From Caulobacter soli (GTDB lineage Bacteria; Pseudomonadota; Alphaproteobacteria; Caulobacterales; Caulobacteraceae), in contig NZ_CP049199.1 of NCBI RefSeq assembly GCF_011045195.1, forward strand, positions 2,108,001 to 2,172,000: a DNA stretch of 64,000 bases, given 5' to 3'. The notes beneath the pieces were generated by a model. The model ran no database searches, was not told the origin of the DNA, and saw only the letters and a list, made by a program, of their open reading frames with translations. The first letter of the stretch is position 1. Every line of letters starts with the position of its first letter. Positions 46,074-60,782 of the stretch are shown piece by piece. A program made the position numbers and the translations under genes.

Positions 46074-47363
46074 TCAGGCCGGCCGTCGCTGGGCCATTTC
46101 GCTCAAGGCGTCGTGCAGGTGGGCCAGGGCCCGGTCGAGCGCGGCCGGCTCGGACCCGAAGCCGAGGCGAATGTGCCCGGCGAGGCCGAAATACTCACCC
46201 GGAGCCACCAGCAGGTCGTGTCGGATCCAAAGAGCCTTGGCCAGGGCAAGCGTGTCGTCGACCCCGACCACCTTGGGGAACGCCATGCTGCCGAAGGCGG
46301 GCATCGGACCTTCCAGCAGGCCGTCGGCGATCATGGCGCGTAGACGCCGCTCGGCGACCGGTCGGGTTTCGGTCAGGAGCCGTTTCCAATGCAGGTCGAA
46401 CACATCGGATTCTTCCAGCACCTGGGCGGCCACCGCGTGGGCCAGCTTGGACACGCCGATGTCACCCTCGGGCGAACGGGCTTGGATCCGTGCGATGTCG
46501 CCTGTCGAGGCGCAGATCCAGCCGAACTTCAGGCTGAAGAGGCCGAACACCTTGGTCAGGCTGGAGACCGTGATGATGTTGTCGGCCAGGCCGGCGGCTG
46601 ATCGCGACAATTTCGGCCGGGCGAAATCGGCGTAGACCTCGTCGATGATGACGCGCGCTCCGACCTGGTCGGCCAGGGCCGCGATCTTCAGGAGATCGGC
46701 GTCGGAAGTCAGGGCTCCGGACGGGTTGTGCAGGTTGGTCAGCACGATCGCGCGCGTTCGGGGGCCGATCTTGCGCGCCAGGTCGTTCAGGTCGACGGCG
46801 AAGTCCGGCGCCCGCCGGGCGAAGGTTTCGACGCGGGCCCGGCTATCGCGCGCCACGCGGGCCAGCAGGTCGAAGCCCGGACTTTCGATCAGCACGTGAT
46901 CGTCGTCCTCGACCAGGGCCTTCAGCGCCAGTCCAAGCGCGCTGGTCGCGCCGGTGGTGGTCAGGATCTGGTCGACGCCAACGCCATAGCGGCGAGACAG
47001 CGCCTCGATGGCGAACCGGTTGCCGCCGGCGAACACGCTGACATAGCGCGGCGAGACGTTCAGCGAGAAGGCGTACCGGATCACCTCCATCAGGGCCGGC
47101 AGCGGCTCGTCGATCGTGCTCTCGAACAGGGCGATGGTCGTGGGATGCTCGGCCCGCAGGCGCATGCTCTCGCGCACCCAATCGGAATAGGTCGAGGCCG
47201 AGAACAGGCGCTCGGCCTGGCCTGGCCGGCCTTCGGGCGCGGGTGGTGGGGCGAAATCCAAGTCTGTGTCCGAGGCCTTGAGCGCGCCGCGCGATGAGCA
47301 GCGATACAAGCCTAAGGCGATGGGCCGGAGTTTCTTTGCGATCTGCCCGTTCGCGACCCTCAA
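46074..47363 (-). CDS. Class I/II PLP-dependent aminotransferase
   Basis: Up to 429 residues; the start is uncertain because no ATG exists before the conserved region, and TTG 47363 (with AAGG nine bases upstream) is the farthest choice. Fold-type I motifs are clear: TTTGATSALGLALKALV (cofactor phosphate region), NLHNPSGALTS with the conserved Asn, VIIDEVYADF with the Asp and Tyr, and SSLTKVFGLFSLKFGW with the Schiff-base Lys. The C-terminal Arg for the substrate carboxylate is likely in GHIRLGFGSE. The enzyme is cytoplasmic with no regulator domain attached. It sits at the left border of the amino-acid cluster; the substrate is unknown. Confidence 0.88.
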   Translation of the reverse strand: MRVANGQIAKKLRPIALGLYRCSSRGALKASDTDLDFAPPPAPEGRPGQAERLFSASTYSDWVRESMRLRAEHPTTIALFESTIDEPLPALMEVIRYAFSLNVSPRYVSVFAGGNRFAIEALSRRYGVGVDQILTTTGATSALGLALKALVEDDDHVLIESPGFDLLARVARDSRARVETFARRAPDFAVDLNDLARKIGPRTRAIVLTNLHNPSGALTSDADLLKIAALADQVGARVIIDEVYADFARPKLSRSAAGLADNIITVSSLTKVFGLFSLKFGWICASTGDIARIQARSPEGDIGVSKLAHAVAAQVLEESDVFDLHWKRLLTETRPVAERRLRAMIADGLLEGPMPAFGSMAFPKVVGVDDTLALAKALWIRHDLLVAPGEYFGLAGHIRLGFGSEPAALDRALAHLHDALSEMAQRRPA

Positions 47364-47437
47364 ATTCGTTGGCCTTATGCGTGACGCGACCGCAGCCCGA
47401 ATAAGTTATGTGTGCGCTCTCGGCGCGCGCGGAGCTC

Positions 47438-47450
47438 GCATAGACGATGC
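47438..47450. promoter_or_regulatory. GCAT-N5-ATGC dyad (site 1)
   Basis: GCAT-AGACG-ATGC, centred about 142 bp before the start of the S10 peptidase gene, and also in the promoter region of the divergent aminotransferase gene. It is one of a series of the same dyad in this cluster. The spacer AGACG recurs at 60576. Confidence 0.6.
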
Positions 47451-47585
47451 CTTCCGCGACGGCTTGGCGACTAGACTGCGCGCCGGATCGGCTCGCCGCA
47501 GCGCCGATTGCAAAGATATTGTGGCTGGCGGCGACTAGACTTTCTGTACCCGGCGCGACCGGGCAAGGGGAGACCACGTTCGATC

Positions 47586-49088
47586 ATGAAGACCGCGACC
47601 ACCTGCGCGCTCGCCGCCGTCCTGCTGTTCACCGCCCCGGCCCTGGCCGCCACGCCGGACGCGCCATCCGCCCCCGCCGCCGCGGCGCCGGTCCAGCAGG
47701 TCGCCATCACCAAGCACAAGGGCGTCTTCAACGGCCAGGCCGTCGCCTACACCGCCACCGTCGCCGACTATGTGGTCGCTGGCGCGGACGGCAAGCCGGG
47801 CGCGTCCATCGTCACCATCGCCTATACGCGAGACGTCAAGGACGCGGCCAAGCGGCCGGTGATGTTCGTCTATAACGGCGGACCTGGCGCCTCCTCGTCG
47901 CCGCTGCACCTGGGAGCCCTTGGGCCGATGCGGAAGGCGGCGGCCGATGCGCCCAAGGACGCGCCGCCGCGCGACAACCCCTTCAGCCCGCTGGACGCCT
48001 TCGACCTGGTGTTCATCGATCCGGTGGGCACCGGCTTCAGCCGGCCGTTCCCGGGCGCCGACACCAAGGCCTGGTACTCGCGCTCCGGCGACGCCAAGGC
48101 CGTCGCCTCGGCGATCGAGCAATGGCTGAAGGCCAACAAGCGCGAGGCCTCGCCGCGCTACATGACCGGCGAGAGCTACGGCACGACCCGCGCCGCCATG
48201 ATCCTCAAGGAAGCGCCGAACCTGCATTTCGACGGCGTCGCGCTGGTCGCCCTGGTCGGCGACGCCAAGGGCAAGGAGATGCCCTATGTCGCGGCCTTGC
48301 CGACCATGGCCGCCGGCGCCTGGTATCACCAGCGTGTCGACCGCAAGGGCCGCACGGTGCAGCAAGCGTACGACGAGGCGCTGGAGTTCGCGCGCGGCGA
48401 CTACGTCAAGGCGCTCATCCAGGGTTCCAGCCTGCCGCCGGCCGAGCACAGGCGCATCGCTGAACGGATGTCGGAGCTCACCGGCCTGCCGGTCGATCTG
48501 ATCGAGTCCAAGGACCTGCGGCTGTCCAAGAATGACTTCATGTTCAACCTGCTCAAGGACAAGACCCTGCGCACCGGCCTGCTGGACGTGCGCGTGACCG
48601 CGCCGCTGGAGCCCGGGCAGGAGGGGTCGATCGACGATCCCGCGCTGGGCGTCATGCCCAAGCGTGCGGCCGGCGCGCCGGCGGTCGACAACAAGTCGTT
48701 CAATCCGGCCAGTCTGGGCGCGATCCCCAATCCGGCCCTGGGCCGCTACCTGACCGAAGACCTGAAGTTCAAGTCGGCGGAGCCCTACTACGCGCTGAAC
48801 TTCATCGTGAACTCGGCCTGGAACTACGAGGGCGGCGGCGACGTCAACGACGCGGTGGGCGAGGCGATGAAGGCCGATCCGAAGCTGCGCCTGTTCTGGG
48901 CGGCCGGTCTCTACGACCTGACCACGCCCGCCTACGCGGCGCGCTATACGCTGGACCACGCGGGCATCCCCGTCGACCGGCTGACGGCGGTCTATTTCGA
49001 CGGACCGCACGGGGTCTATGACGGGGACGACAACCTGGCCAAGTTCAACGCCGCGCTGAAGGCCTTCGTGGCGGCCGGTCAGCCCTGA
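47586..49088 (+). CDS. Secreted S10-family serine carboxypeptidase
   Basis: 500 residues from ATG 47586, which opens a signal peptide (TTCALAAVLLFTAPALAA). Motifs of the S10 family are complete: RPVMFVYNGGPGASSSPLHL (oxyanion region), FIDPVGTGFSRPF, the nucleophile S197 in YMTGESYGTTRAAM, the Asp in FWAAGLYDLTTPAYAAR and the His in FDGPHGVYDGD. Such enzymes trim residues from peptide C-termini in the periplasm. The gene is monocistronic between a dyad site upstream and a strong hairpin downstream. A paralogue with the same layout is at 53646. Confidence 0.94.
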   Translation: MKTATTCALAAVLLFTAPALAATPDAPSAPAAAAPVQQVAITKHKGVFNGQAVAYTATVADYVVAGADGKPGASIVTIAYTRDVKDAAKRPVMFVYNGGPGASSSPLHLGALGPMRKAAADAPKDAPPRDNPFSPLDAFDLVFIDPVGTGFSRPFPGADTKAWYSRSGDAKAVASAIEQWLKANKREASPRYMTGESYGTTRAAMILKEAPNLHFDGVALVALVGDAKGKEMPYVAALPTMAAGAWYHQRVDRKGRTVQQAYDEALEFARGDYVKALIQGSSLPPAEHRRIAERMSELTGLPVDLIESKDLRLSKNDFMFNLLKDKTLRTGLLDVRVTAPLEPGQEGSIDDPALGVMPKRAAGAPAVDNKSFNPASLGAIPNPALGRYLTEDLKFKSAEPYYALNFIVNSAWNYEGGGDVNDAVGEAMKADPKLRLFWAAGLYDLTTPAYAARYTLDHAGIPVDRLTAVYFDGPHGVYDGDDNLAKFNAALKAFVAAGQP

Positions 49089-49095
49089 CGGCGAG

Positions 49096-49120
49096 GGCCG
49101 CGTCCCCGGGGGACGCGGCC
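49096..49120. terminator. GC-rich hairpin between convergent genes
   Basis: GGCCGCGTC (49096-49104) pairs with GACGCGGCC (49112-49120), with CCC/GGG able to extend it. It fills the gap between the S10 peptidase and the convergent PLP-enzyme gene. Probably a bidirectional terminator despite the lack of a T-run. Confidence 0.6.
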
Positions 49121-50398
49121 TCAGGCCGGCGGCGCCTTGGGCAGTACGCTCAGCAGGCGGTCGATGTCGTTGGCGTCGTTGAAGGCGGCCAGTGATACGC
49201 GGAAGCGGTTCTGCGAGACGGTGATGGTCACGCCGGCCTTCTTGAGCGGCTCGCTCAGCTTGGCGCGCGCGTCCTTGAGGGCGAAGGCGACCAGCTGGGT
49301 GCGGCTGTCGAGCGGAGTCAGCGGCTCGTAACCGCGCCGGCGCAGGTCGTCCTGGACCATCCGCGCGAGCGGTTGGCGGTGGGCCTGCAGGCGATCGACG
49401 CCGACGGCCTTGATCCAAGGCAGCGAGTAGGACAGCTGCACCATGCCGGTCCAGCCGGTGGTGCCCGCGCCAAAACGACCCGTCGCCGTGTTCGCGCCGG
49501 CCGCATCAGCCACGGTCGAGCCCGGCGGATCGTAGGGGAAGACGTGCGACTGGAAGCTGGCGACCTGCTCATAGCCCCACCAGGGCCGCGCGATCTTCTC
49601 CTGGATCTCCTTGCGCACATAGAGGAAGCCCAGGCCGAAATCGCCCATCAGCCATTTGTAGGAAGACGCGGCGGCGAAATCGACGCCCGAGGCGCGCAGG
49701 TCCACGGGCACGACGCCGGCCGCGTGGACGATGTCGGCATAGACATAGGCGCCATGGGCATGGGCCAGGTCGCAGACGGCCTTCAGGTCGTGCTCGAAGC
49801 CGTTGGTCGTCGAGACCAGGCTGATCGACACCAGCTTGGTCTTGTCGTTCACGGCCGCGGCCATCTCGTCCATGTCGATGCGGCCGTCCTGGGTCATCCG
49901 CAAGGTGACCACGTCCATGCCGGCCTTGCCCAGTTCCCCATAGGTGTAGAACGAGCCGAAGAAGTGCAGGGCGTCGGTGACGATCCGGCCGCCGGCCTGC
50001 GGAAAGCCCAGGGCCTTGAGCACCAGGTTCTCGCCCATGGTCGTGGACTGGATCACGCACAGCTCGTCGGGCGTGGCGCCGACCAGCTCGGCGAAGGTCT
50101 GGACGGCCAGCTTCTCCTTGGCGCCGTAGCTGTAGTCGGGCGTGGAACCGTCGCGGGTCTTGTAGCGGAGGTATTCCTCCAGGGCGGCCTTGGCGCCCAG
50201 CGGCATGGGGTGGGTGGCGCCGGAGTCGAGATAGGTCACAGGCATCTTGGCGAACGCGGCCTTGGCGGGCAGGGCGATCGGCGTCGAGGGCAGGGCGGAC
50301 GACGGGGCGGCCGGGGCCTTGGCGGGCGCGTCGGCGGCCCGGGCCAGGGTGGGCGACAGGGCCGCGGCGGCGACGAGGGCGCGTCGGGTGAACTTCAA
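49121..50398 (-). CDS. Class V PLP-dependent enzyme with a Tat-type signal peptide
   Basis: 425 residues from TTG 50398, chosen because AGGAG lies seven bases before it and it gives a compact signal peptide (KFTRRALVAAAALSPTLARA) with a twin-arginine motif. After an Ala/Pro-rich spacer (about 22-45) comes the class V fold: TYLDSGATHPMPLGAK, QSTTMGENLVLKALG, NGFEHDLKAVCDLAHAHGA, YADIVHAAGVVPVDL with the cofactor Asp and SSYKWLMGDFGLGF with the Schiff-base K248. Relatives include isopenicillin-N-epimerase-like and cysteine-desulfurase-like enzymes. Export of a folded, PLP-loaded enzyme by Tat is uncommon. A signal-less paralogue is at 57456. Confidence 0.88.
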   Translation of the reverse strand: MKFTRRALVAAAALSPTLARAADAPAKAPAAPSSALPSTPIALPAKAAFAKMPVTYLDSGATHPMPLGAKAALEEYLRYKTRDGSTPDYSYGAKEKLAVQTFAELVGATPDELCVIQSTTMGENLVLKALGFPQAGGRIVTDALHFFGSFYTYGELGKAGMDVVTLRMTQDGRIDMDEMAAAVNDKTKLVSISLVSTTNGFEHDLKAVCDLAHAHGAYVYADIVHAAGVVPVDLRASGVDFAAASSYKWLMGDFGLGFLYVRKEIQEKIARPWWGYEQVASFQSHVFPYDPPGSTVADAAGANTATGRFGAGTTGWTGMVQLSYSLPWIKAVGVDRLQAHRQPLARMVQDDLRRRGYEPLTPLDSRTQLVAFALKDARAKLSEPLKKAGVTITVSQNRFRVSLAAFNDANDIDRLLSVLPKAPPA

Positions 50399-50526
50399 CG
50401 GACGTCTCCTGAACCGGCCTGCGCCGGGCAAGTCGAAAGGCTAGCCGACCCGCGCGGAATAGTCCGTTCGTTGTCGGCCCCGCGCCGGACCGCGCGTGGA
50501 TAGCCTATCTCGTGCAGGCGCGCGGA

Positions 50527-50543
50527 GCGCATCGACCATGCGC
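50527..50543. promoter_or_regulatory. GCAT-N5-ATGC dyad (site 2)
   Basis: GCGCAT-CGACC-ATGCGC, perfect 6-bp arms, centred about 137 bp before the TTG start of the exported class V enzyme gene and ending 3 bases from the stop codon of the Lrp gene. The most symmetrical member of the series. Confidence 0.65.
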
Positions 50544-50545
50544 GA

Positions 50546-51028
50546 TCAGCGGAAGCCGCGCGCCTTCAGCGGTACGGCGGTGGTGCTCTTGGTTTCGGTC
50601 AGGGTGACGATGGAGCGCACGTCGACCACGCCAGGCAGCTTCAGCAGGACGTGGAAGATGAAGTCCTGGTACCACTTCACGTCCGGAGCGACGATCTTCA
50701 GCATGCAGTCCATCTCGCCGAACACGGTCCAGCACTCCAGGATTTCCGGCGTGTTGCGGATGGCTCGGTGGAATTTCTCGCGGTCCTCGTCGTTCAGCGT
50801 CGTCATCTTCACCTGGGCGAAGATCTGCATGGTGAAGCCCAGCTTCTCCTGGTCGACGATGGCGACGACGGCCTTGATGTAGCCTTCCTCGCGCAGGCGC
50901 TGGATGCGCCGCCAGCAGGGCGACTGCGACAGGCCCACGCGTTCGGCCAGTTCCGACGACGACAGCGATGCGTCGCGTTGCATGACCTCGAGGATCTTGA
51001 GGTCGATGGCGTCTGGCTTGAATGACAT
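50546..51028 (-). CDS. Lrp/AsnC-family transcriptional regulator
   Basis: 160 residues. A classical Lrp N-domain: DAIDLKILEVMQRDASLS, then SSELAERVGLSQSPCWRRIQ (the helix-turn-helix with the usual SxxxxxRRIxRL pattern). The RAM domain follows: FAQVKMTTLNDEDREKFHRA, ECWTVFGEMDCMLKIVAPDV and LPGVVDVRSIVTLTETKSTT. Proteins of this size form octamers or hexadecamers and answer to amino acids. A dyad of the series found across this cluster overlaps its own start codon, so it likely regulates itself and the neighbouring peptide-use genes. Confidence 0.95.
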   Translation of the reverse strand: MSFKPDAIDLKILEVMQRDASLSSSELAERVGLSQSPCWRRIQRLREEGYIKAVVAIVDQEKLGFTMQIFAQVKMTTLNDEDREKFHRAIRNTPEILECWTVFGEMDCMLKIVAPDVKWYQDFIFHVLLKLPGVVDVRSIVTLTETKSTTAVPLKARGFR

Positions 51029-51037
51029 ATCCTATGT
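51025..51037. promoter_or_regulatory. ACAT-N5-ATGT dyad over the lrp start codon (site 3)
   Basis: ACAT-ATCCT-ATGT. The bases CAT at 51026-51028 are the reverse complement of the Lrp start codon, so protein bound here would block its transcription or translation start. Suggests autoregulation. Confidence 0.6.
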
Positions 51038-51348
51038 TTCCTCACGTCATTTTTTGCATTGAGCATGTGGCCGGGCGTTTGGATGCGCAAGTGTTAGCTG
51101 TTAGGTGAGTTTTCCGTGATGTCGGCCGTCGGCGCCTATCGGTTGGGCCGAGGCGCCGCTTCGGCGCCTCTCCGCCGTGCGTTTTCAAGGCGCGAAGGGC
51201 GGCTTGGCCGCGAGGATCATGCTGGCCTGGTGGGCCGGCCGCATGGCTTATGCGCCTGTCTTTCCTCCGGACGCGGAAATCACAAAGATCAGTCGCCCGG
51301 GTCAGGCTAGGCTGGCGCCAGGCGGCCATTGCAAGGAATGAGGTCGGG
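51029..51348. other. Divergent control region between lrp and the ornithine-cyclodeaminase-family gene
   Basis: 320 bp without a gene. It carries dyad site 3 at its left edge and site 4 at 51241. A GGCGCCG-rich part at 51145-51180 may form weak hairpins; nothing else is evident. Confidence 0.6.
51240..51254. promoter_or_regulatory. GCAT-N5-ATGC dyad (site 4)
   Basis: CGCAT-GGCTT-ATGCG, perfect 5-bp arms, centred about 102 bp before the ATG at 51349. Confidence 0.65.
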
Positions 51349-52317
51349 ATGAGCGCGCTGAAAGACCGTTCCCTGATCGTGCTCGACGCGACGGCCGTGC
51401 GGCGCATGCTGACCGTTTCGACGGCCATCGCCCCGGTGCGCGAGGCGATGATCGCCCTGTCCAGCGACCGCGTCCGCCAGCTCCTGCGCAGCTTCATCGC
51501 GCTCGATGCGGGCAAGACCTTCGCGATCATGCCCGCCGCCTTGCTGGACGCTCAGGTGTTCGGGGCCAAGCTGGTCTCGGTGTTCGGCGACGGCCAGGGG
51601 CGCAAGGCGCATGAAGGCGTCGTGGTGCTGTTCGACGGGATTGGCGGCGCGCCGGTCTGCGTGGCCGACGCCGGCGAGGTCACGGCCATCCGCACCGCCG
51701 CCGCCAGCGCCGTGGCGACCGACGCCCTGGCCCGTCCCGACGCCGACCGCCTGGCGGTCCTGGGGATCGGCCGCCAGGCCGCCGCCCATATCGAGGCCAT
51801 AGCCCAAGTGCGGTCCCTGACCTCGGTGGCCGTCTGGGGTCGCGACGCCGGGCGCACGCGCGCCTTCGCCGAAGACATGGCCACGCGAACCGGCCTGAAG
51901 GTCGAGGCGGCGTCCGACGTCCAGGCCGCCGTCGCCGACGCCGCGATCATCTGCACCGTCTCGGCCGCCGTCGACCCGATCCTGAACGGGGCCTGGGTCG
52001 CGCCGGGAACCCACGTCAACGTGGTCGGCTCCAGCGGGCCGATGGCCGCCGAGATCGATGGCGAGCTGGTCCAGGCCGGCCGCTTCATCGTCGATCATCG
52101 CGAGCATGTGCTGGTCCATGGCGGCGAGTTCCTGCGCGCCAAGGCCCAGGGCCTAGTCGGCGACGAGGCCATCGCCGCCGAGATCGGTGAGGTGTTGGCC
52201 AGCCATGCGCCGGGTCGCCAAGGCGCGGACCAGATCACCGTCTACAAGTCGCTCGGCCACGCCGCGCAGGACTTGGCCGTCACCGCTTGGCTCTATGCCC
52301 AGGCGCGCGACGCCTGA
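51349..52317 (+). CDS. Ornithine cyclodeaminase / mu-crystallin family protein
   Basis: 322 residues from ATG 51349 (GAGG five bases before; upstream in-frame sequence is not family-like). The family pattern is clear: FIALDAGKTFAIMPA, VFGAKLVSVFGDGQ with the substrate Lys, the Rossmann motif LAVLGIGRQAAAHIEAIAQV (GxGxxA) for NAD(P), VWGRDAGRTRAFAEDM and HVNVVGSSGPMAAEID with the catalytic Asp. Members act as ornithine cyclodeaminase, alanine dehydrogenase or pyrroline-2-carboxylate-type imine reductase; sequence alone does not decide. It probably forms an operon with the amidohydrolase 25 bp downstream. A second copy begins at 63814. Confidence 0.92.
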   Translation: MSALKDRSLIVLDATAVRRMLTVSTAIAPVREAMIALSSDRVRQLLRSFIALDAGKTFAIMPAALLDAQVFGAKLVSVFGDGQGRKAHEGVVVLFDGIGGAPVCVADAGEVTAIRTAAASAVATDALARPDADRLAVLGIGRQAAAHIEAIAQVRSLTSVAVWGRDAGRTRAFAEDMATRTGLKVEAASDVQAAVADAAIICTVSAAVDPILNGAWVAPGTHVNVVGSSGPMAAEIDGELVQAGRFIVDHREHVLVHGGEFLRAKAQGLVGDEAIAAEIGEVLASHAPGRQGADQITVYKSLGHAAQDLAVTAWLYAQARDA

Positions 52318-52342
52318 ACGCCATCCATCATCGGGAACGCCC

Positions 52343-53644
52343 ATGAAGATCCGAGCTCTCGCCGTCGCCGCCGCCGTGGCCTTGTTGCCCGCCACGACCT
52401 GGGCGGAAGACCTGGTGGTCCACGCCGGCCGCCTGCTGGACGGGGTCTCGCCGACGCCGCGCGCTCAGGTCTCGATCCTGGTGCACGACGATCGGATCGT
52501 CGGCGTCCAGGACGGCTTCACGGCGCCGGCCGGCGCGCGCGTGATCGACCTGTCCAAGGCCACGGTGCTGCCGGGCCTGATCGACACCCACACCCACGTC
52601 ACCTATCGGCGGGGCGGTCTGACGACCCAGCTGACCGGGTCGCTGCTGGACGACGCGCTGCATTCGACGGTGGCGGCGCGCAAGCTGCTGATGGGCGGCT
52701 TCACCTCGATCCGCAATGTCGGGGCCGACGGGGGGACGGACGCGGCCCTGAAGCGGGCCATCGAGCGCGGCGACGTGATCGGCCCGCGCATGTGGGTGTC
52801 GCTAGAGCCGCTCGGCCCGACCGGCGGCCACAGTGATCCGCGCAACGGGATCGACGAGTCCTGGCACAACGACGACTGGGGCAACGAGGTGATCGATAGT
52901 CCCGAGGCGGCGATCAAGGCGGTGCGCGAGCATAAGCGACGCGGGGCCGACCTGATCAAGATCATGCCCTCGGGCGGGGTCGGCTCGATCGGCGACGATC
53001 CCAAGCGCATGCTGATGACCGAGGCCGAGATCAAGGCGACGATCGACACCGCCCACAGCCTGGGCCTGAAGGTCGCCGCCCACGCCCACGGTAAGGCGGC
53101 CATCGACACGACCGTGCGGCTGGGCGTCGATTCCATCGAGCACGGCAGCTATGCCGACGCGGAGTCTTTCAAGCTGATGAAGGAGCACGGGACGTACCTG
53201 GTGCCCACCGTGCTGGTGGGCCGGCTGGTCGCCGACATGGCCCGCAGCGCGCCCAACCAAGCCAATCCCGGCTCGGCGGAGAAGGCGGCGGCGATCGTAC
53301 CGATCATCTTCAAGATGCTGCACGACGCCAACGCCGCCGGGGTGAAGATCGCCTTCGGGACCGACGTCACCGGCCTGATCCCGTTCGACGCCAACGCCCG
53401 CGAGTTCAAGGTGATGGTCGACGCCGGGGTGACGCCGTCCGACGCCATCTTCGCCGCCACCCGCAACGCCGCCGACCTGATCGGGGCCTCGGACCGCATC
53501 GGTTCGATCCAGGCCGGGCGCTTCGCCGACATCGTGGCGGTGTCGGGCGATCCGCTGGCCGACGTCACCGAGCTGGAACGGGTCAAGTTCGTGATGAAGG
53601 GCGGCAAGGTCTATCGCGACGACCTGGCCGCCGCCGCGCCCTGA
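52343..53644 (+). CDS. Secreted metal-dependent amidohydrolase (imidazolonepropionase/Xaa-Pro dipeptidase-like)
   Basis: 433 residues with a signal peptide (KIRALAVAAAVALLPATTWA). Metal ligands of the amidohydrolase barrel are all present: LIDTHTHVTYRR (H83 and H85), the carbamylated Lys in GADLIKIMPSGGVG, the His in KVAAHAHGKAAID and SIEHGSYADAE, and the Asp in KIAFGTDVTGLIPF. Exported members of this subfamily act on dipeptides, often with proline or N-acyl groups. The gene directly follows the ornithine-cyclodeaminase-family gene, which suggests that its product amino acid is handled by that enzyme. It ends one base before the convergent S10 gene. Confidence 0.9.
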   Translation: MKIRALAVAAAVALLPATTWAEDLVVHAGRLLDGVSPTPRAQVSILVHDDRIVGVQDGFTAPAGARVIDLSKATVLPGLIDTHTHVTYRRGGLTTQLTGSLLDDALHSTVAARKLLMGGFTSIRNVGADGGTDAALKRAIERGDVIGPRMWVSLEPLGPTGGHSDPRNGIDESWHNDDWGNEVIDSPEAAIKAVREHKRRGADLIKIMPSGGVGSIGDDPKRMLMTEAEIKATIDTAHSLGLKVAAHAHGKAAIDTTVRLGVDSIEHGSYADAESFKLMKEHGTYLVPTVLVGRLVADMARSAPNQANPGSAEKAAAIVPIIFKMLHDANAAGVKIAFGTDVTGLIPFDANAREFKVMVDAGVTPSDAIFAATRNAADLIGASDRIGSIQAGRFADIVAVSGDPLADVTELERVKFVMKGGKVYRDDLAAAAP

Positions 53645-53645
53645 T

Positions 53646-55130
53646 CTAGGCCGGCGCGCCGCCCGTGACGAAGGCGCGGATGTCGTCGGTGAAGGCCTTC
53701 AGGCTGGGCAGGTGCGAATAGGCCATGTGGCCCCCCACGTACTGGCGCAGGAACACCCGCTCGCGGGGGAAGTCGCTGCTGGACACCAGATAGCGCGCCG
53801 GGCCCACGGTGGTCGTCAGGTCGTAGATGCCGGTGCCGACCATCAGGCGGAACTTCGGATTGGCCTTGAAGGCCTTCTGGATCTGGGCGGGATAGTCGTA
53901 GTCCCAGAAGGGGCCGCCCATGCCGCCGGTCGGGCTCCAGGTCCAGGCGTCGGAGCCGGGAGCGATGTCGCGGTAATCGGACAACGGCCAGGTCACGCCC
54001 AGGCTCTTCAGCTGTTCGGCGATCATCGGCGCGATGGCCCCGGTGATCCGACCGGCCGGATCGACCGGACGCGCGCCTGGCGCCGGAGCCGGGCCGGTGT
54101 AGCGGGCGTCGTAGGTTCCCAGGATGAGGCCTTGGTCCTTCAGCAACTCCCGACCGAAGGCCACCTTGCTGATGACCAGGTCGTGGGCGAGGTAGTAGTC
54201 GACGCTTATGCCGGTCAGGGCTTGCAGCTTTTCGGCCATCTGGCGACGCTCGGCGGCCGGCAGGTCCTGGCCCTTGGCCAGCGCCAGCAGGTAATCGCTC
54301 ATGGCGAAGGCGTAGGTCTTGTCGATGAACGCCGTGGCTGACAGACCGCCGGTGTCGGCGCGACCGTGATAGGCGGCGATCGAGGCCAGCTGAGGCAGGT
54401 TGGTGGCGTAGGACACGATGTTGCGCGCCCGCTGGCTGGTCTCGATCATGTTGGCCGCCTGACCAAACAGGAAGACGCCCTCCAGCGGCATCACCGCCGA
54501 CAGCTTGCCCGCCATCAGCGAGGCCCGGACGGTGCCGTAGCTTTCGCCCAGCACGTATTTCGGCGAGGCCTCGCGACCGTTGGCCTTGCTCCAGGCGACC
54601 ACGAAATCGGCGATCGACTGGGCGTCGCCGTCAGCGCTGTAGAAGCGCTCGCGCGAGCCGGCCGGAGCGATGCGCGAAAAGCCGGTCTCGGCCGGATCGA
54701 TGAAGACGAGATCGGCGACATCCAGCACGGTGGCGTCGTTGTCGACCAACTGGGGCGGCGGCTGCGGCGCCTTGACGTCCTGGGCGATGACGACGCGACG
54801 AGGGCCGAGCGCCACGGTGTGCAAGGTCGCCGACGAACTGCTGGGCCCGCCGTTGAACACGAACAGCACCGGCCGCGTGGGTGAGCCTTGAGCGGCGACA
54901 TAGCTGGTGGTGACCAGGCGCAAGGTGGCGGCGCCCTGGCTGTCGACCAGCACGGTCTCGCCCACCGTGGCGATGTAGTCGACGCGCTTGCCGTTGAACA
55001 CGCCGCGTCGCTTGGCGACGAACGGTCCGCCGGCGCGGGCGTCTTCGGCGTGAGCGGGCAGGCCGCTGGCCAGGGCGCCGGCTCCCAGCATCGCGCCCGT
55101 CAGCAGAGCGCGCTTGGTCAGGGAAGGCAT
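53646..55130 (-). CDS. Secreted S10-family serine carboxypeptidase (second copy)
   Basis: 494 residues from ATG 55130 (a GTG five codons upstream is possible). The signal is SLTKRALLTGAMLGAGALAS with a Lys-Arg rather than a twin Arg. Family motifs: RPVLFVFNGGPSSSSATLH, FIDPAETGFSRIAP, nucleophile S197 in YVLGESYGTVRASL, the Asp in MVGTGIYDLTTTVGPAR and the His in YVGGHMAYSHLP. It differs from the copy at 47586 in the oxyanion stretch (PSSSS for PGASS) and the residue before the catalytic glycine stretch (AETG for VGTG), which may mean a different specificity. Three dyad sites lie upstream. Confidence 0.93.
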   Translation of the reverse strand: MPSLTKRALLTGAMLGAGALASGLPAHAEDARAGGPFVAKRRGVFNGKRVDYIATVGETVLVDSQGAATLRLVTTSYVAAQGSPTRPVLFVFNGGPSSSSATLHTVALGPRRVVIAQDVKAPQPPPQLVDNDATVLDVADLVFIDPAETGFSRIAPAGSRERFYSADGDAQSIADFVVAWSKANGREASPKYVLGESYGTVRASLMAGKLSAVMPLEGVFLFGQAANMIETSQRARNIVSYATNLPQLASIAAYHGRADTGGLSATAFIDKTYAFAMSDYLLALAKGQDLPAAERRQMAEKLQALTGISVDYYLAHDLVISKVAFGRELLKDQGLILGTYDARYTGPAPAPGARPVDPAGRITGAIAPMIAEQLKSLGVTWPLSDYRDIAPGSDAWTWSPTGGMGGPFWDYDYPAQIQKAFKANPKFRLMVGTGIYDLTTTVGPARYLVSSSDFPRERVFLRQYVGGHMAYSHLPSLKAFTDDIRAFVTGGAPA

Positions 55131-55251
55131 AGGTCCAATCTCCACGTCGTCGACTCGTCGAGCCTATCGGGAGGAGGGGAGATTATCTTTGCATTCTCGC
55201 TGACCCGAGCCGGCGGGGGCGCCCAACCTATGCGGCCGGTTCGATTTCGAC

Positions 55252-55264
55252 ACATGGATGATGC
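55252..55264. promoter_or_regulatory. ACAT-N5-ATGC dyad (site 5)
   Basis: ACAT-GGATG-ATGC, centred about 128 bp upstream of the S10 peptidase start at 55130. Confidence 0.5.
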
Positions 55265-55315
55265 GGGCGATGTTCAGGAGGCGGCGCGGGGAGGTCACGC
55301 CCCGTTCTTTGAGGC

Positions 55316-55328
55316 GCATGGCCTATGT
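55316..55328. promoter_or_regulatory. GCAT-N5-ATGT dyad (site 6)
   Basis: GCAT-GGCCT-ATGT, centred about 143 bp before the RidA start and 26 bp from site 7. Confidence 0.55.
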
Positions 55329-55340
55329 TCCGAGCCGTCA

Positions 55341-55355
55341 CGCATAATCCATGCG
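55341..55355. promoter_or_regulatory. GCAT-N5-ATGC dyad (site 7)
   Basis: CGCAT-AATCC-ATGCG, perfect 5-bp arms, centred about 117 bp before the RidA start. The spacer AATCC recurs at 60607 and, inverted, at 58615. Confidence 0.65.
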
Positions 55356-55464
55356 CGACTTGTGTGAACGACGACCAGAACGCCAGGCTTATGCGGCGTG
55401 GTTCTGACAGATAGAGCGACCTGTGCGGGCGCCGAAAGGCCTCCGCGAAGTTTCGGAGCGCCGT

Positions 55465-55851
55465 ATGGAAATCGTTGGACCGCCCCTGACCGGCCCCGCG
55501 GGGATGATCCTGCCGCTGTCCCAGGCCGTCACCGTGGGAGACCTGGTGTTCGTATCCGGCCAGATCGCCTTGCGGGACGGCAAGATCATCGGGCGCGACG
55601 TGGCCGAACAGACCGAGATCGTCTTCGACGGGATCGAGTCCATCCTGACCATGGCCGGCTTGACCCTGGGCGACGTCGCCAAGACCACCGTCTGGTTGGC
55701 CCGCGCGCCTGACTTCGGTGAGTTCAACCGGGTCTACGCCGCGCGCTTTGGCGATTGGCGGCCAGCCCGTTCGACAGTCGTCAGCGCGCTGGTCTTTCCA
55801 GAGGCCCTGGTCGAGATCGAGGTGATCGCCGCGCGCCGCGCCGCGCGCTGA
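55465..55851 (+). CDS. RidA-family (YjgF/UK114) imine/enamine deaminase
   Basis: 128 residues from ATG 55465, preceded by GGAG at six bases; this matches the usual RidA length, while earlier starts add a non-conserved stretch. Family motifs: LVFVSGQIALRDGK, LTLGDVAKTTVWLA, FNRVYAARFGDWRPARSTVV with the conserved carboxylate-binding R102, and ALVEIEVIAAR with the Glu. RidA hydrolyses reactive imines and enamines released by PLP enzymes. Two class V and one class I/II PLP enzymes are encoded in this cluster, so it may protect against, or take part in, their chemistry. It is transcribed alone or with the permease gene downstream. Confidence 0.93.
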   Translation: MEIVGPPLTGPAGMILPLSQAVTVGDLVFVSGQIALRDGKIIGRDVAEQTEIVFDGIESILTMAGLTLGDVAKTTVWLARAPDFGEFNRVYAARFGDWRPARSTVVSALVFPEALVEIEVIAARRAAR

Positions 55852-56130
55852 TCGCCATTCGTGAACGCCCAAGCCAAGCTCTGACCTAATCGCGCAGAAA
55901 CTATCCGCCCTATTGAGCCGATGAGACTAATTCGTCCGCGCGTCGCGATGGTGAGGGCAAGTTCGAATAGTTGATGCGAAGCCCTGGTCCTATGCTGGCC
56001 GCGCAAGACGCCGCGTCCGCGCGGCCGACCCTGGGGGAGTGGACATCGGCGATCATCGTGGTCGCGGCGGTCGCACGCCTGGCGTGGGCGGCCTGGGGCG
56101 GGCGCGAGATCCTGGAGTGCGCCCGACACG

Positions 56131-57459
56131 ATGACCGGCCCTGTTTCCACTTCCCCGCCGGCCTTGAAGCACGGGGTCGGCCTTGTCGACCTGGTCATGC
56201 TGGGCGCCGGCACCGCGATCGGCGCGGCGATCTTCTCGGTTCTGGGGCCGGCCAGTCAGGTCGGCGGGGCGGGGATCCTGATCTCGGCCGGGCTGGCGGC
56301 GATCCCGATGATTGTCTTCGCCCTGGTCTATGCCTACATGGCCTCGGCCCTGCCCAAGACCGCGGCGTCCTACGAGTGGCAGCGCATTCTGACCAAGCCG
56401 TGGATCGCTTTCGCGGTGGTGTGGATGCGCATCCTCAGCAACGCGGTGGTGATGATCGTGCTGGGCCGGGTTCTGGTCAGCTACCTGTCGATGGTGATCG
56501 ACCTGCCGGCCGCCCCCACCATGCTGGGGCTGTTCTTCCTGATCTTCTGCCTCAACTACGTGGGCGTGAAGGTCGCGGCCCGAGCGCAGACGGTCCTGAT
56601 GGTGCTGCTGCTGGCGGTGTTCGCCGTGTTCGTGGCGGCGGGCGCGCCGCGCCTGCAGCCGCATCTGTTCGTCGAAGCCGTCGGCGGCGGCTGGGGTCCG
56701 ATCCTGGCGGCCTTGCCGCTGATGATCCAGCTGTTCCTGGGCATCGAGACCGCCACCGAGGTCGGCGAAGAGGTCCGTGATCCCAAGACCACCGTGCCGC
56801 TGGGCCTGGCCCTGGCGCTGCTGCTGACCGTCGTCGTCTATGTGACCATCGCCTTCACCGCGCTCAGCCTGGTGGGACCCGCCGGTCTGGCCGCCAGCAA
56901 GGCGCCGCTGCTGGCCGCGGCCGAGGTCACGTTGGGCGGCTGGGCCAAGCCCCTGATCGTCGGCGCGGCCGTGCTGGCCCTGACCAAGTCGATGAACGCC
57001 ATCTTCCTGGTGTTCACCCGGTTCCTGTACGCCATGGGGCGTTCGGGCGTGTTGCCGTCCGGCCTGGGCGCTCTGCATCCCAAGTTCGGCACGCCGCACC
57101 GCGCCACGATCGTCGCCTTCGTCTTGACCGCGGCGTGCGTGGTGCTGCCGTCCAGCCTGCTGTTCCTGCTGCTGGCGGTGAACATCCCGACCATGATGAA
57201 ATACGCCGGCTCGTGTCTGGCCGCGTTCAACATGGCCCGCCATCACCCCGACCTGCACGCCCAGGCCCGCCTGCCGTTCAGCCGCGTCGGTGTCCAGGCC
57301 CTGGCGGTCGCCGGGATCATCGTGGCCGTCATCGTCGCGGCCCTCGGGCTGGGTTCGGACTGGCGACCCTACGTGCTGCTCGCCGCCTGGTTGGCGGTCG
57401 GCATGGTCTACTACGTCGCCACGCGCGGCCGACAGGCTCGGGACGAGGCGGCCGCATGA
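56131..57459 (+). CDS. APC-superfamily amino-acid permease
   Basis: 442 residues with about 12 hydrophobic helices. The N-terminal motif VGLVDLVMLGAGTAIGAAIF (TM1, with the unwound GAGTAIGAAIF that binds the amino-acid backbone) and the TM6-region LMIQLFLGIETATEVGEEV followed by RDPKTTVPLGLALAL are the diagnostic parts of APC transporters. It would import an amino acid or a small peptide product across the inner membrane. Its TGA overlaps the ATG of the following PLP-enzyme gene (ATGA), so import and processing of the substrate appear linked. The start at 56131 fits the family N-terminus although the ribosome site is weak. Confidence 0.93.
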   Translation: MTGPVSTSPPALKHGVGLVDLVMLGAGTAIGAAIFSVLGPASQVGGAGILISAGLAAIPMIVFALVYAYMASALPKTAASYEWQRILTKPWIAFAVVWMRILSNAVVMIVLGRVLVSYLSMVIDLPAAPTMLGLFFLIFCLNYVGVKVAARAQTVLMVLLLAVFAVFVAAGAPRLQPHLFVEAVGGGWGPILAALPLMIQLFLGIETATEVGEEVRDPKTTVPLGLALALLLTVVVYVTIAFTALSLVGPAGLAASKAPLLAAAEVTLGGWAKPLIVGAAVLALTKSMNAIFLVFTRFLYAMGRSGVLPSGLGALHPKFGTPHRATIVAFVLTAACVVLPSSLLFLLLAVNIPTMMKYAGSCLAAFNMARHHPDLHAQARLPFSRVGVQALAVAGIIVAVIVAALGLGSDWRPYVLLAAWLAVGMVYYVATRGRQARDEAAA

Positions 57460-58604
57460 CGCTGGTCGTGGATCGACCCCTGGGCGCGGCCCGTCGCGCC
57501 GACTTCGGCCCCATGGCCCGGATCCATCTGGACTCGGCCTACATGCACCCGATGAGCCTGGGCGCGCGCCGGGCCCTGGACCGTTATGCCGAGTACCGCA
57601 TGGGCGGGGCGGCCAATTCGCCCCACGACGACGCCACGGTGCGCGAGTCGGTCCAGCGCATGTTCGCCACCCTGATCGGCGCCTCGCCCAGCGAGATCGC
57701 CTTCGTGCCCAGCACCATGGCCGGCGAGAACGCTGTGCTGTCGGCCCTGGGTCTCAGCGGCGGCAAGGGCAGGGTGGTCACCGACGCCCTGCATTTCACC
57801 GGTTCGCTCTATCTCTACGAACGCCTGGCCGAGAACGGTCTGGACGTCGAGGTGCTGCCGGCCCGTGACGGCCGCGTCGACCTGGCCGACCTCGAAGCGG
57901 CCCTGAAGACGCCGACCGATCTGGTCGCCGTGTCGCTGGTCTCCAACTACAACGGCTTTCGCCATGACCTGGACGCCGTCTGCGACCTGGCCCATCGCCA
58001 GGGGGCGCTGGTCTATGCCGACATCATCCAGGCGGCGGGGGCGACGCCCTTCGACGTGAAGACGTCCGGCGTCGATTTCTGCGCCTGCGCGACCTACAAG
58101 TGGTTGATGGGCGATTTCGGCGTCGGCTTTCTCTACGCCCGCGCCGACCGCCTGGACCGCCTGGATCCGACCGCGTTCGGTTATCGCCAGGTCAGCGAGA
58201 TGATCGCCCAGCCCGAGGCCGATCCGCCCGTGCTGTGGCGGGCCCGACCCGACGCCATCGGCGCGTTCGGCATGGGCACCACGGCCGATGGCGCGGTGGC
58301 CCAGCTGCATCATTCGCTGGACCATATCCTGACCGTGGGGGTCGAGGCGCTGGCCCGCCACCGTACGAGCCTGCTGGCGCCGTTGCGCGAGCGGCTGATC
58401 GGTCTGGGCGCCCGGATCCTGACGCCCGATGACCCGGCGACTCCGATCCTGGCCTTCGCGCCGCCGCGCCTGGCCGAAGCGAGCGCGCGACTGGCGGCCG
58501 CCGGCGTCTTCGCCTCGGTCTACGAGGACCGCGTGCGGGTGGCGCCGACGCTGTTCAATGACGCCGACGACATCGACGCCCTGGTGGCGGCGCTCTGGGG
58601 CTGA
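57456..58604 (+). CDS. Cytoplasmic class V PLP-dependent enzyme
   Basis: 382 residues, ATG overlapping the permease stop by 4 bp. Class V motifs: IHLDSAYMHPMSLGARRALD, PSTMAGENAVLSALG, SNYNGFRHDLDAVCDLAHRQ, VYADIIQAAGATPFDV with the cofactor Asp and ACATYKWLMGDFGVGF with Schiff-base K215. It is clearly paralogous to the exported enzyme at 49121 but has no signal peptide. Family members act as aminotransferases, epimerases, lyases or desulfurases, so the reaction is uncertain. Coupling to an APC permease suggests that it acts on the imported compound. Confidence 0.92.
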   Translation: MTLVVDRPLGAARRADFGPMARIHLDSAYMHPMSLGARRALDRYAEYRMGGAANSPHDDATVRESVQRMFATLIGASPSEIAFVPSTMAGENAVLSALGLSGGKGRVVTDALHFTGSLYLYERLAENGLDVEVLPARDGRVDLADLEAALKTPTDLVAVSLVSNYNGFRHDLDAVCDLAHRQGALVYADIIQAAGATPFDVKTSGVDFCACATYKWLMGDFGVGFLYARADRLDRLDPTAFGYRQVSEMIAQPEADPPVLWRARPDAIGAFGMGTTADGAVAQLHHSLDHILTVGVEALARHRTSLLAPLRERLIGLGARILTPDDPATPILAFAPPRLAEASARLAAAGVFASVYEDRVRVAPTLFNDADDIDALVAALWG

Positions 58605-58614
58605 CCTCAGGGGC

Positions 58615-58627
58615 GCAAGGATTATGC
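58615..58627. promoter_or_regulatory. GCAA-N5-ATGC dyad, imperfect (site 8)
   Basis: GCAA-GGATT-ATGC, seven of eight positions matching the series, centred about 179 bp before the gluzincin peptidase start. On the opposite strand it reads GCATAATCC, shared with sites 7 and 10. Confidence 0.45.
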
Positions 58628-58799
58628 AAAGTTCGCGGGCGAGGGCAGGGGCGCGAATGACTCTTGCGCCAAGGCTGTCGTCGGCGGTTAGGTCATGCGT
58701 ATTCGGTCGTGACGGCGTGATCCTAAACTCGAAGTAATTCAAAGTCTTGCCGCGAAGGCGGCATAGTCGAGCGAACGAAACAGGGCCTTGGGGGCGACG

Positions 58800-60506
58800 A
58801 TGTTGAACCGCTTTTCGATGATGACGTGCGCGGCTGTTCTGGCGCTGAGCGCGGGCATGACCCAGGCCGCCGAACCGGCCCTGCCAAAACTGAATGTCCA
58901 ATTGACGCCTCATGCCGAGGGCGGTGCGCAAAGCTATATGGCCGTGCGCGAGACCCTGGAGGCGCCGAGCCTGCCGGCGGGCGGGGTGCTGGTGCGCCTT
59001 CCGGTGAAGCTGGTCGGCATTCCGGGGTCGCAGTTGCTGGGCGATGGGCTGACGGCGCGCGATGCGTCGGGTCCCCTCTCCTTGACGGAGGAACTGGAGC
59101 CGCCGACCCCGCAGGGCGGCTACCGCCATTGGAAGGTCTCGCGCGCCACGGTCGGCGACGTCGTCGTCGACTACCGCGCCGCGCCCCGCCAGATCAGCGC
59201 GGCCACCAACAACGGTCCGCTGTTCGACCTGCGCGAGGAAAGCGGCGGCTTCGCCGGGGCCGGGGTGACGTTCCTGGCCGTTCCGCCCGGCGAGCGTCCC
59301 TATCGTCTCGCCGTGGACTGGGACCTGTCGCAGGCGCCGAAGGGCTCGCGCGGGGTCTCGTCGCTGGGTGAAGGTCATGTCGAGACGGTGGGGCCGGCCG
59401 AGCGTCTGGTCTTCTCGTTCTACGCCGCCGGCCCGCTCCAGACTCTTCCGGGGCAAAGCGACGGCTTCGGGCTCTATTGGCTGAGCCCGCCGCCGTTCCC
59501 GGCCGACACGCTGGGCGCGCGCATCAAGACGCTGCACGCCGCGATGGCCAAGTTCTTCGGCACGAGCGATTCCGCCTATCGTGTCTTCATTCGCCAGAAT
59601 CCCTATGCGGGCACGGGCGGCACGGCCCTGCCGAGCTCCTTCATGTTCGGCTATCGCGCCAGCGACAAGCCGACGCTGGAGGCGCTGCAGAGCCTGGTGT
59701 CCCACGAGATGGCCCACAACTGGCCGGCCATGCAGGGTGAGCACGGCGACACCGCGTGGTACAGCGAGGGCACCGCCGAATTCTATTCGATGCTGCTGTC
59801 CTATCGGTCGGGCCTGCTGTCGCTGGACGGTTTCGTCGACTCCCTGAACGACAAGACGGCGGCCTACTACACCAATCCCTATCTGCGCCTGACCAACCCC
59901 GAGGCGGCGAAGATCTTCTGGAGCGATCCGACCGCCCAGACCGTGCCCTATGGCCGGGGCTTCCTCTATCTGGTCGACACCGACGCGGCGATCCGCGCCA
60001 AGTCGGGCGGCAAGCATAGCCTCGACGACGTGGTCCAGGAGATCTATCGCCGCCAGAAGGCCGATCAGCCCTATGCGATCGAGACTTGGCTGGATCTGGT
60101 CGGCAAGGAGATCGGGGCCGACGCCGCCAAGGCCGGCTACCAGGCCATGGCGAACGGCGAGGTCCTGCATCCGGCCAACCGCTTCGCCGGTTGCCTGGTC
60201 GCCAGCCCCAAGACGATGCGGATCTTCGAGCTGGGCTTCGATCGCGCCTCGCTGGCCGACGCGCGCATCGTGCGCGGCCTGAAGGCCGGCTCGGAAGCCG
60301 ACAAGGCCGGCGTGCGCGACGGCGATCAGATCCTGACCGAGAGCGGCCTGCTGGAAGCCCGCAAGGACGAGACCCGCGCCCTGACCTTGACCCTCAAGCG
60401 CGACGGGGCCGAGCGCACGGTCACCTTCCAGCCGCGGGGCGCGGGCGTCGAAGGCGTCGTATGGGCCAAGGGGCCTGGCGCGAACCCGGAGACCTGCCGG
60501 TTCTGA
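58800..60506 (+). CDS. Secreted M61-like gluzincin peptidase with C-terminal PDZ-like domain
   Basis: 568 residues from ATG 58800, which gives a signal peptide (MMTCAAVLALSAGMTQAA). The zinc site is SHEMAHNWPAM (H302, E303, H306) with the third ligand E323 in WYSEGTAEFYS, as in M1/M61 peptidases. The N-terminal part (about 30-240) is beta-rich. The C-terminal region (about 475-555) has the PDZ-like pattern RIVRGLKAGSEADKAGVRDG followed by DQILTES. This is the M61 (glycyl aminopeptidase) layout. It would remove N-terminal residues from peptides in the periplasm, complementing the S10 carboxypeptidases. A hairpin follows the gene. Confidence 0.9.
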   Translation: MLNRFSMMTCAAVLALSAGMTQAAEPALPKLNVQLTPHAEGGAQSYMAVRETLEAPSLPAGGVLVRLPVKLVGIPGSQLLGDGLTARDASGPLSLTEELEPPTPQGGYRHWKVSRATVGDVVVDYRAAPRQISAATNNGPLFDLREESGGFAGAGVTFLAVPPGERPYRLAVDWDLSQAPKGSRGVSSLGEGHVETVGPAERLVFSFYAAGPLQTLPGQSDGFGLYWLSPPPFPADTLGARIKTLHAAMAKFFGTSDSAYRVFIRQNPYAGTGGTALPSSFMFGYRASDKPTLEALQSLVSHEMAHNWPAMQGEHGDTAWYSEGTAEFYSMLLSYRSGLLSLDGFVDSLNDKTAAYYTNPYLRLTNPEAAKIFWSDPTAQTVPYGRGFLYLVDTDAAIRAKSGGKHSLDDVVQEIYRRQKADQPYAIETWLDLVGKEIGADAAKAGYQAMANGEVLHPANRFAGCLVASPKTMRIFELGFDRASLADARIVRGLKAGSEADKAGVRDGDQILTESGLLEARKDETRALTLTLKRDGAERTVTFQPRGAGVEGVVWAKGPGANPETCRF

Positions 60507-60514
60507 AGTCGGGT

Positions 60515-60544
60515 CGCCCCGTCGAACACGAGTTCGGCGGGGCG
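60515..60544 (+). terminator. Hairpin after the gluzincin peptidase gene
   Basis: CGCCCCGTCGAA (60515-60526) pairs with TTCGGCGGGGCG (60533-60544) over 12 bp with one G-T wobble. It begins 8 bases after the stop. No T-run. Confidence 0.5.
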
Positions 60545-60575
60545 TCATGACGATTGCGCCGCTTACCCAAGCTTC

Positions 60576-60588
60576 ACATAGACGATGC
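60576..60588. promoter_or_regulatory. ACAT-N5-ATGC dyad (site 9)
   Basis: ACAT-AGACG-ATGC, centred about 200 bp before the TonB receptor start. The flank CATAGACGATGC is shared with site 1, 13 kb away. Confidence 0.55.
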
Positions 60589-60606
60589 TTTCCGACGCGG
60601 CGGCTC

Positions 60607-60619
60607 GCATAATCCATGT
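60607..60619. promoter_or_regulatory. GCAT-N5-ATGT dyad (site 10)
   Basis: GCAT-AATCC-ATGT, centred 31 bp from site 9, three helical turns, so both would be on one face of the DNA. It shares the 13-mer CGCATAATCCATG with site 7. Confidence 0.6.
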
Positions 60620-60782
60620 ATGTCGCCCACGCGACGGTTCGAAGAACGAAAAGATAAACTGTCCTCCTTGACCTAGCCTTATGGCGTGGAAACGACCTGA
60701 CCGGCCGCTTGGCGGATCTGTCGGGCGATTTCCCTAGACGTCGCTTGGGGAAGAGCGCGTTCCAAAACCATAAGGGGGTACC

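Follow-up and report, generated by a model that had tools for sequence, protein, structure and literature searches.

A short palindrome repeated through one gene cluster raises the question of whether it is the operator of a regulator encoded in the middle of that cluster. In the 64-kb window of the Caulobacter soli genome analysed here (the whole stretch of DNA, numbered from its first letter), the dyad RCAT-N5-ATGY recurs among genes for peptidases, pyridoxal-phosphate (PLP) enzymes and a TonB-dependent receptor, together with lrp (50546–51028), a gene of the Lrp/AsnC family. The dyad, its phasing, its position in promoters, its conservation and its co-occurrence with the regulator can be read directly from the DNA. 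We propose that this Lrp uses the dyad as its operator and is an autorepressing activator of a peptide-use regulon, a reading to which we give a probability of about 0.8. The identification of the dyad as the operator, already made in a preliminary description of the window, is supported by conservation in loci with orthologues of the regulator, co-occurrence of tandem pairs with it, absence from the loci of its paralogues and a 31-bp phasing.

Clustering of the dyad

The window holds ten exact RCAT-N5-ATGY matches, every one inside 47438–60619. The nine exact sites listed in the preliminary description were all recovered, a tenth (51056) was added, and the site at 58615 reads as the 7/8 match reported. 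Nine of the ten are intergenic, as claimed; the remaining dyad, at 51025, overlaps the lrp start codon. Dinucleotide shuffles of the window (n = 100) gave a mean of 2.51 matches and a maximum of 7, compared with the 10 observed; the earlier chance figure of about four per 64 kb was too high. Control spacers (N2–N4 and N6–N12) gave 0–3 matches each across the window, with only two between 46 and 61 kb (N9 at 60607 and N10 at 48454). The genome-wide count that had been suggested as a check came to 98 sites in 5,676,814 bp, a rate at which ~0.2 would be expected in the 13.2 kb that hold the 10 seen (Poisson P about 3 × 10−14). Under a pessimistic null, in which all background sites are placed in an assumed 10% intergenic fraction of the genome, 0.28 would be expected in the 1,831 intergenic bases of the cluster (P about 7 × 10−13). 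The genome has 18 copies of the strict form GCAT-N5-ATGC, of which 4 fall in the cluster.

An eleventh loose site follows 0.8 kb after the end of the window (L090:2806), ahead of another S10-type gene. Sampling of nine further stretches along with L090 yielded 13 sites outside the cluster, 6 within called genes and 7 not, and four of these 7 share one stretch without any called gene. A strict dyad was seen at L083:6995 (C1:3981995), between two TonB-receptor genes ~1.8 Mb from the cluster and roughly 90 bp upstream of one of them; it is possibly a distant regulon member, or chance.

The genes and sites of the cluster are as follows (dyads are given without strand; Pfam marks an assignment by domain match; ORF, open reading frame).

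46074–47363, minus strand: AT1, PLP aminotransferase class I/II (Pfam); true start downstream of 47314
47308–47337, minus strand: A-rich box and TAG of AT1, with a gap of 11 instead of 12
47399–47411: 7/8 dyad of the AT1 promoter, centre 91 bp before TAG
47438–47450: dyad GCATAGACGATGC of the S10a promoter, centred 92 bp before TAG
47512–47541, plus strand: A-rich box and TAG (−10-like) of S10a, 3 mismatches to consensus
47586–49088, plus strand: S10a, serine-carboxypeptidase family protein (Pfam, on an ORF from 47508)
49121–50398, minus strand: AT5a, class-V PLP enzyme (Pfam)
50529–50541: dyad GCATCGACCATGC of the AT5a promoter, in the lrp–AT5a gap, centred 92 bp before TAG
50546–51028, minus strand: lrp, Lrp/AsnC-family regulator of 160 aa (Pfam), the predicted dyad binder
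51025–51037: dyad ACATATCCTATGT, left half containing the lrp start codon (complement)
51056–51068: dyad GCATTGAGCATGT, 31 bp from the ACATATCCTATGT dyad, predicted to cover the lrp promoter
51241–51253: dyad GCATGGCTTATGC, centre 61 bp before the OCDa TAG
51284–51313, plus strand: A-rich box and TAG of OCDa, 3 mismatches
51349–52317, plus strand: OCDa, ornithine cyclodeaminase/mu-crystallin family (Pfam, on an ORF from 51250)
52343–53644, plus strand: AMH, amidohydrolase, next after OCDa (Pfam, on a longer ORF)
53646–55130, minus strand: S10b, serine-carboxypeptidase family protein (Pfam)
55161–55190, minus strand: A-rich box and TAG of S10b, 2 mismatches
55252–55264: dyad ACATGGATGATGC, centre 92 bp before the S10b TAG
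55316–55328: dyad GCATGGCCTATGT, ahead of RidA, with no recognisable A-box promoter
55342–55354: dyad GCATAATCCATGC, likewise ahead of RidA, at 26 bp from the GCATGGCCTATGT dyad
55465–55851, plus strand: presumably a RidA-like ORF, labelled from its sequence
56131–57459, plus strand: amino-acid permease (Pfam), without its own dyad
57456–58604, plus strand: AT5b, second class-V PLP enzyme (Pfam, on a longer ORF)
58615–58627: 7/8 dyad before M61, off the canonical distance
58800–60506, plus strand: M61-type peptidase (weak Pfam match)
60576–60588: dyad ACATAGACGATGC, centre 92 bp before the TonB-receptor TAG
60607–60619: dyad GCATAATCCATGT, centre 61 bp before the TonB-receptor TAG, 31 bp from the ACATAGACGATGC dyad
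60650–60679, plus strand: A-rich box and TAG of the TonB receptor, 2 mismatches
60783–63743, plus strand: TonB-dependent receptor (Pfam)

Two generalizations of the preliminary description need narrowing. Placement 100–200 bp upstream of a start codon does not extend to the dyads at 51025 and 51056, which are centred 3 and 34 bp from that of lrp. The marking of nearly every transcription unit also has exceptions: permease–AT5b has no exact dyad directly upstream, and M61 has only the 7/8 match.

Conservation and co-occurrence with the regulator

The product of lrp matches HTH_24, HTH_AsnC-type and AsnC_trans_reg above the Pfam gathering cut-offs, with an N-terminal AsnC-type helix-turn-helix and a C-terminal RAM ligand domain; a typical Lrp gene does, as described, lie inside the cluster. 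Among solved structures its sequence relatives over the whole length are 3i4p, 2p5v and 2gqq. An orthologue at at least 78% identity is present in 3 of 41 genus genomes, the window's own included, and in the other two a dyad pair 31 bp apart stands directly upstream of lrp; this patchy distribution suggests loss or transfer of the whole cluster. No dyad was found at 27 paralogous-Lrp loci (at most 3.5 kb each).

From a wider collection of named genomes we obtained 47 loci with Lrp relatives. The core set comprises 27 loci (L031–L057) with an orthologous Lrp of 72–87% identity, labelled Caulobacter, Phenylobacterium, Caulobacteraceae, one Brevundimonas metagenome-assembled genome (MAG) and unassigned MAGs. 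These 27 loci contain 126 N5 dyads, compared with 3–24 at other spacings (N2 10, N3 7, N4 24, N6 3, N7 11, N8 13, N9 6, N10 22, N11 7, N12 3; near-duplicate loci are included here and in the 31-bp pair counts below), and the dyad is thus conserved with the orthologous Lrp. The corresponding counts are 27 versus up to 24 in 14 mostly sphingomonad loci, 4 versus up to 3 in two Brevundimonas loci and 1 versus up to 5 in four outgroup loci. Motif discovery in the orthologous loci, by a scan of symmetric 3- to 5-mers with spacers of 0–13, ranked GCAT-N5-ATGC first, at 64 copies for an expectation of 1.37 in the intergenic sequence of 25 loci (L039, L046 and L048 dropped as near-duplicates); the intergenic mask is approximate, as the simple gene caller misses OCDa in the window.

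We also tallied exact dyads for each gene across 32 loci, the window left out, in the interval between 400 bp upstream of it and 25 bp inside it. They precede the TonB receptor in 25 of 27 cases, AT1 in 23/27, Lrp in 34/41 (distant paralogues counted), S10a in 14/24 and S10b in 10/41. The tallies are 4/27 for AT5a, 4/22 for M61, 1/16 for OCDa and 1/12 for S10c, and none was found for OCDb (0/19), the permease (0/7), AT5b (0/1), AMH (0/1) or an unrelated TonB receptor, TBDT0 (0/1).

Neighbouring sites, one exact and the other with at most one mismatch, are spaced 31 bp apart in 46 pairs, with the next peaks at 78 bp (8) and 109 bp (7). Part of a review of the Lrp family gives sites of 13–17 bp that are two or three helical turns apart (PMC2995911). 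The dyad is a 13-bp palindrome and 31 bp is three helical turns, and the phasing therefore fits the site spacing of the family. The exact 31-bp tandem pair occurs at 11 places in 8 of 149 family genomes; an orthologue at E ≤ 1 × 10−50 is found in 18 of the 149, and all 8 genomes with the pair are among these (hypergeometric P about 9 × 10−9). At ten of these places the pair immediately precedes lrp; at the eleventh it precedes the TonB receptor of the window cluster.

Promoter geometry and the A-rich box

Measured from a CTA trinucleotide, the dyads (at most one mismatch) of TonB-receptor leaders have their centres at exactly −91 and −60 in 22 of 24 cases; they stand at 92/61 in L031, and the leader of L033 could not be anchored on CTA. 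The spacing between CTA and the start codon ranges over 73–127 bp (25 leaders) and that between dyad and CTA is fixed; length change is therefore tolerated only downstream of this −10-like element. These leaders also carry an A-rich box, with a consensus of about ACGAAARGAWAATCCG, followed by 12 bases and then TAGNCT. Because TAG starts one base past the C of CTA, −91/−60 from CTA are −92/−61 from TAG. The near-duplicates L039, L048 and L049 were dropped from the TonB-leader and A-box promoter counts, and TonB-receptor leaders too near a locus end were left out.

A search by A-box and TAG alone (up to 3 mismatches) returned 60 promoters in the window and orthologous loci (TonB receptor 21, AT5a 13, S10b 12, S10a 11, OCDa 1, M61 1, unassigned 1). 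Among 48 non-redundant promoters, the commonest offsets of dyads with at most two mismatches are −61 (35 promoters) and −92 (33), and the next offset has 5; exact dyads stand at −92 in 21 and at −61 in 13. With the TonB receptor set aside and the unassigned promoter kept, 26 exact dyads lie within 125 bp of TAG, 21 of them at −92 or −61. The window itself has an exact dyad at −92 for S10a, AT5a, S10b and the TonB receptor and at −61 for OCDa and the TonB receptor, and the 7/8 dyad of AT1 is at −91. The A-box of AT5a is poor (5 mismatches), and the ORF start of AT1 at 47363 lies too far upstream, because the A-box/TAG promoter of that gene is at 47308–47337.

Across the 27 loci, a gap of 12 bases between A-box and TAG gives 60 matches, one of 11 gives 19 and other gaps give at most 10. 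With up to 3 mismatches the box has 14 matches in the genome, compared with 5 for a reversed control; four of the 14 are in this cluster, including both of those with 2 mismatches. At no more than one mismatch it occurs at 19 places in 13 of the 149 family genomes, 15 of them (9 genomes) within about 11 kb of an Lrp orthologue, and the other 4 stand alone in genomes that lack a close orthologue; at this threshold the box does not occur in the window's own genome. We rejected the A-box as a general promoter element, given its near confinement to these clusters. A more speculative proposal, which we hold only tentatively, is that ACGAAARGAWAATCCG-N12-TAGNCT is a core promoter of a non-canonical kind, dedicated to the cluster. 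It would be rare or absent in the rest of these genomes and would work only with Lrp wrapped on the −92/−61 dyads, the A-box being a third sequence-specific contact or a bend and not an ordinary −35 element.

In 28 of 34 lrp leaders a TTGAC precedes a dyad by exactly 18 nt, and that dyad then lies over the expected −10; a dyad is present at −39 to −41 in 31/34, and the start codon falls within a second dyad in 20/34 (near-duplicate loci included, leaders too near a locus end left out). The TTGAC at this spacing is missing from the window and from L031, L033, L034 and L057, and L035 has it only at 28 nt. Six loci (L040, L043, L044, L046, L049 and L052) hold two close lrp copies, of 75–78% identity to the lrp of the window, each with dyads in front; regulator and operators seem to have been duplicated together.

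Mechanism, alternatives and precedents

From these features we infer binding, activation, autorepression and an effector. One Lrp dimer would read one dyad, and dimers on tandem dyads 31 bp apart would lie on the same helix face, as in a DNA-wrapping Lrp multimer. The predicted targets are the promoters of S10a, AT5a, OCDa, S10b, the TonB receptor and probably AT1, with dyads 92 and/or 61 bp upstream of TAG and the A-rich box in the place of a −35 element; Lrp bound at −61/−92 would most likely activate them. Because the dyads at its own gene cover the probable −10 and the start codon, Lrp most likely represses lrp. Positions fit such an autorepressing activator in the 28/34 lrp and 22/24 TonB leaders counted above. 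The effector is probably an amino acid or dipeptide released by the cluster products, since these are peptidases, a TonB receptor and amino-acid enzymes.

The name 'peptide-use cluster' is fair but provisional. Among solved structures, AMH is near the Caulobacter Cc2672 L-arginine carboxypeptidase (3mtw) and other amidohydrolases, the nearest to OCDa is a delta1-pyrroline-2-carboxylate reductase, and AT5a is similar to cysteine desulfurases. N termini that look by eye like possible export signals were seen in several cluster proteins. Elsewhere the window encodes a 3,671-aa protein that combines a TPS secretion domain with 33 YDG-domain stretches (11309–22324, minus strand) and a 2,262-aa YadA-type trimeric autotransporter adhesin (28701–35489, plus strand).

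Several points weigh against an autorepressing activator acting through the dyad. Activation of the targets, the most likely outcome, is read from dyad position, and the −10 is a guess from sequence; the window's own lrp leader has no TTGAC at the common 18-nt spacing. RidA, M61 and the permease do not fit the dyad–TAG geometry in the window. L031, the closest relative, lacks any dyad within 200 bp of lrp and would have lost, or never had, the lrp-proximal pair. The exact tandem pair was not found in 10 of the 18 orthologue-bearing genomes, five with orthologues of 61–64% and five with orthologues of 76–80%. Finally, the Brevundimonas and sphingomonad orthologues (L058–L072 and L077) keep many cluster genes and a nearly identical recognition helix, and their loci show no excess of N5 dyads; spacing counts and the symmetric-dyad scan gave no convincing alternative operator there, and the A-box (up to 3 mismatches, gap 12) has one match in these 16 loci.

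The strongest competitor keeps the dyad as the operator of the cluster Lrp and has Lrp repress its targets too, or act both ways depending on effector. It draws on the overlap of the dyads with the probable −10 at lrp and on AT1 dyads that lie near the tblastn-derived start in many orthologues. The fixed −92/−61 positions upstream of an A-box core in otherwise unrelated promoters are, however, an activator-like geometry, and the TonB leaders have no TTGAC at the usual −35 distance; we regard this version as a minority possibility. Less probable still is that another protein, a second Lrp or a different regulator, reads a dyad that merely travels with the cluster. Other Lrp-type genes are present in some loci, and the window has a second Lrp-like ORF (45359–45898, minus strand) with a weak Lrp/AsnC ligand-domain match below the curated cut-off. 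This ORF, however, was found in only 1 of 49 loci searched (L031, 47%), and it is unlikely to be the reader because the dyad is shared by loci without it; the cluster Lrp was the query that found the 27 loci, the tandem pair stands at its own start, and 27 paralogous-Lrp loci have no dyad. Chance clustering, or a repeat spread through intergenic DNA, could appeal to the commonness of short palindromes (98 copies in the genome) but is rejected as exceedingly improbable on the Poisson clustering, the spacing controls, the dyad scan, the fixed promoter geometry and the co-occurrence of tandem pairs with the regulator.

An autorepressing Lrp activator would have precedents in part. PutR of Caulobacter crescentus is reported to be an Lrp-like, proline-dependent activator of putA (PMC6168545). 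BarR of the Sulfolobales is described as the repressor of its own gene and the activator of an adjacent aminotransferase gene, with several 15-bp semipalindromic sites, spaced two or three turns apart, and DNA wrapped round an octamer (PMC10201364). BarR offers a precedent for combined autorepression and target activation, and PutR for an amino-acid-dependent Lrp activator in Caulobacter. The cluster Lrp shares genus and protein family with PutR and, like it, would control amino-acid use locally. It differs in that its gene is not beside putA: the only proline dehydrogenase match is at C1:1114074–1114952, about 1 Mb off. The adjoining gene there is another Lrp paralogue, of 37% identity to the cluster Lrp, and no RCAT-N5-ATGY occurs between 1,075,758 and 1,157,863. 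Identity with PutR was rejected, given that the proline dehydrogenase, at 1.11 Mb, adjoins a different Lrp. The main text of the PutR paper contains neither 'motif' nor 'binding site'. BarR is archaeal and beta-alanine-responsive with one divergent target, whereas here one code would serve a number of promoters in a bacterial cluster.

The Lrp of Escherichia coli regulates globally, and its sites are AT-rich and degenerate. The cluster Lrp is related in sequence to it (2gqq), as to 3i4p and 2p5v, over its whole length, but is predicted to be local, with a sharp GCAT-N5-ATGC site. Among the matches listed in open-licence literature on Caulobacter and Lrp, no description of this regulon was found, and within that scope the earlier 'apparently undescribed' holds; neither Lrp nor AsnC was found in the main text of a regulon paper (PMC5343134). 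The type of switch is a familiar bacterial one, and the very probable regulator–operator pair is a new and sharply defined case of it.

We thus predict, in Caulobacter and Phenylobacterium, a regulator–operator pair with an unusually sharp code and a fixed promoter geometry, and one regulon that would unite peptidases, a TonB receptor and PLP enzymes. The rigid A-box promoter class may prove to be more than another Lrp-type switch. The inducing peptide or amino acid of the cluster becomes directly testable, and the system is well suited to showing how phased sites upstream of a promoter may serve activation by an Lrp-family protein.

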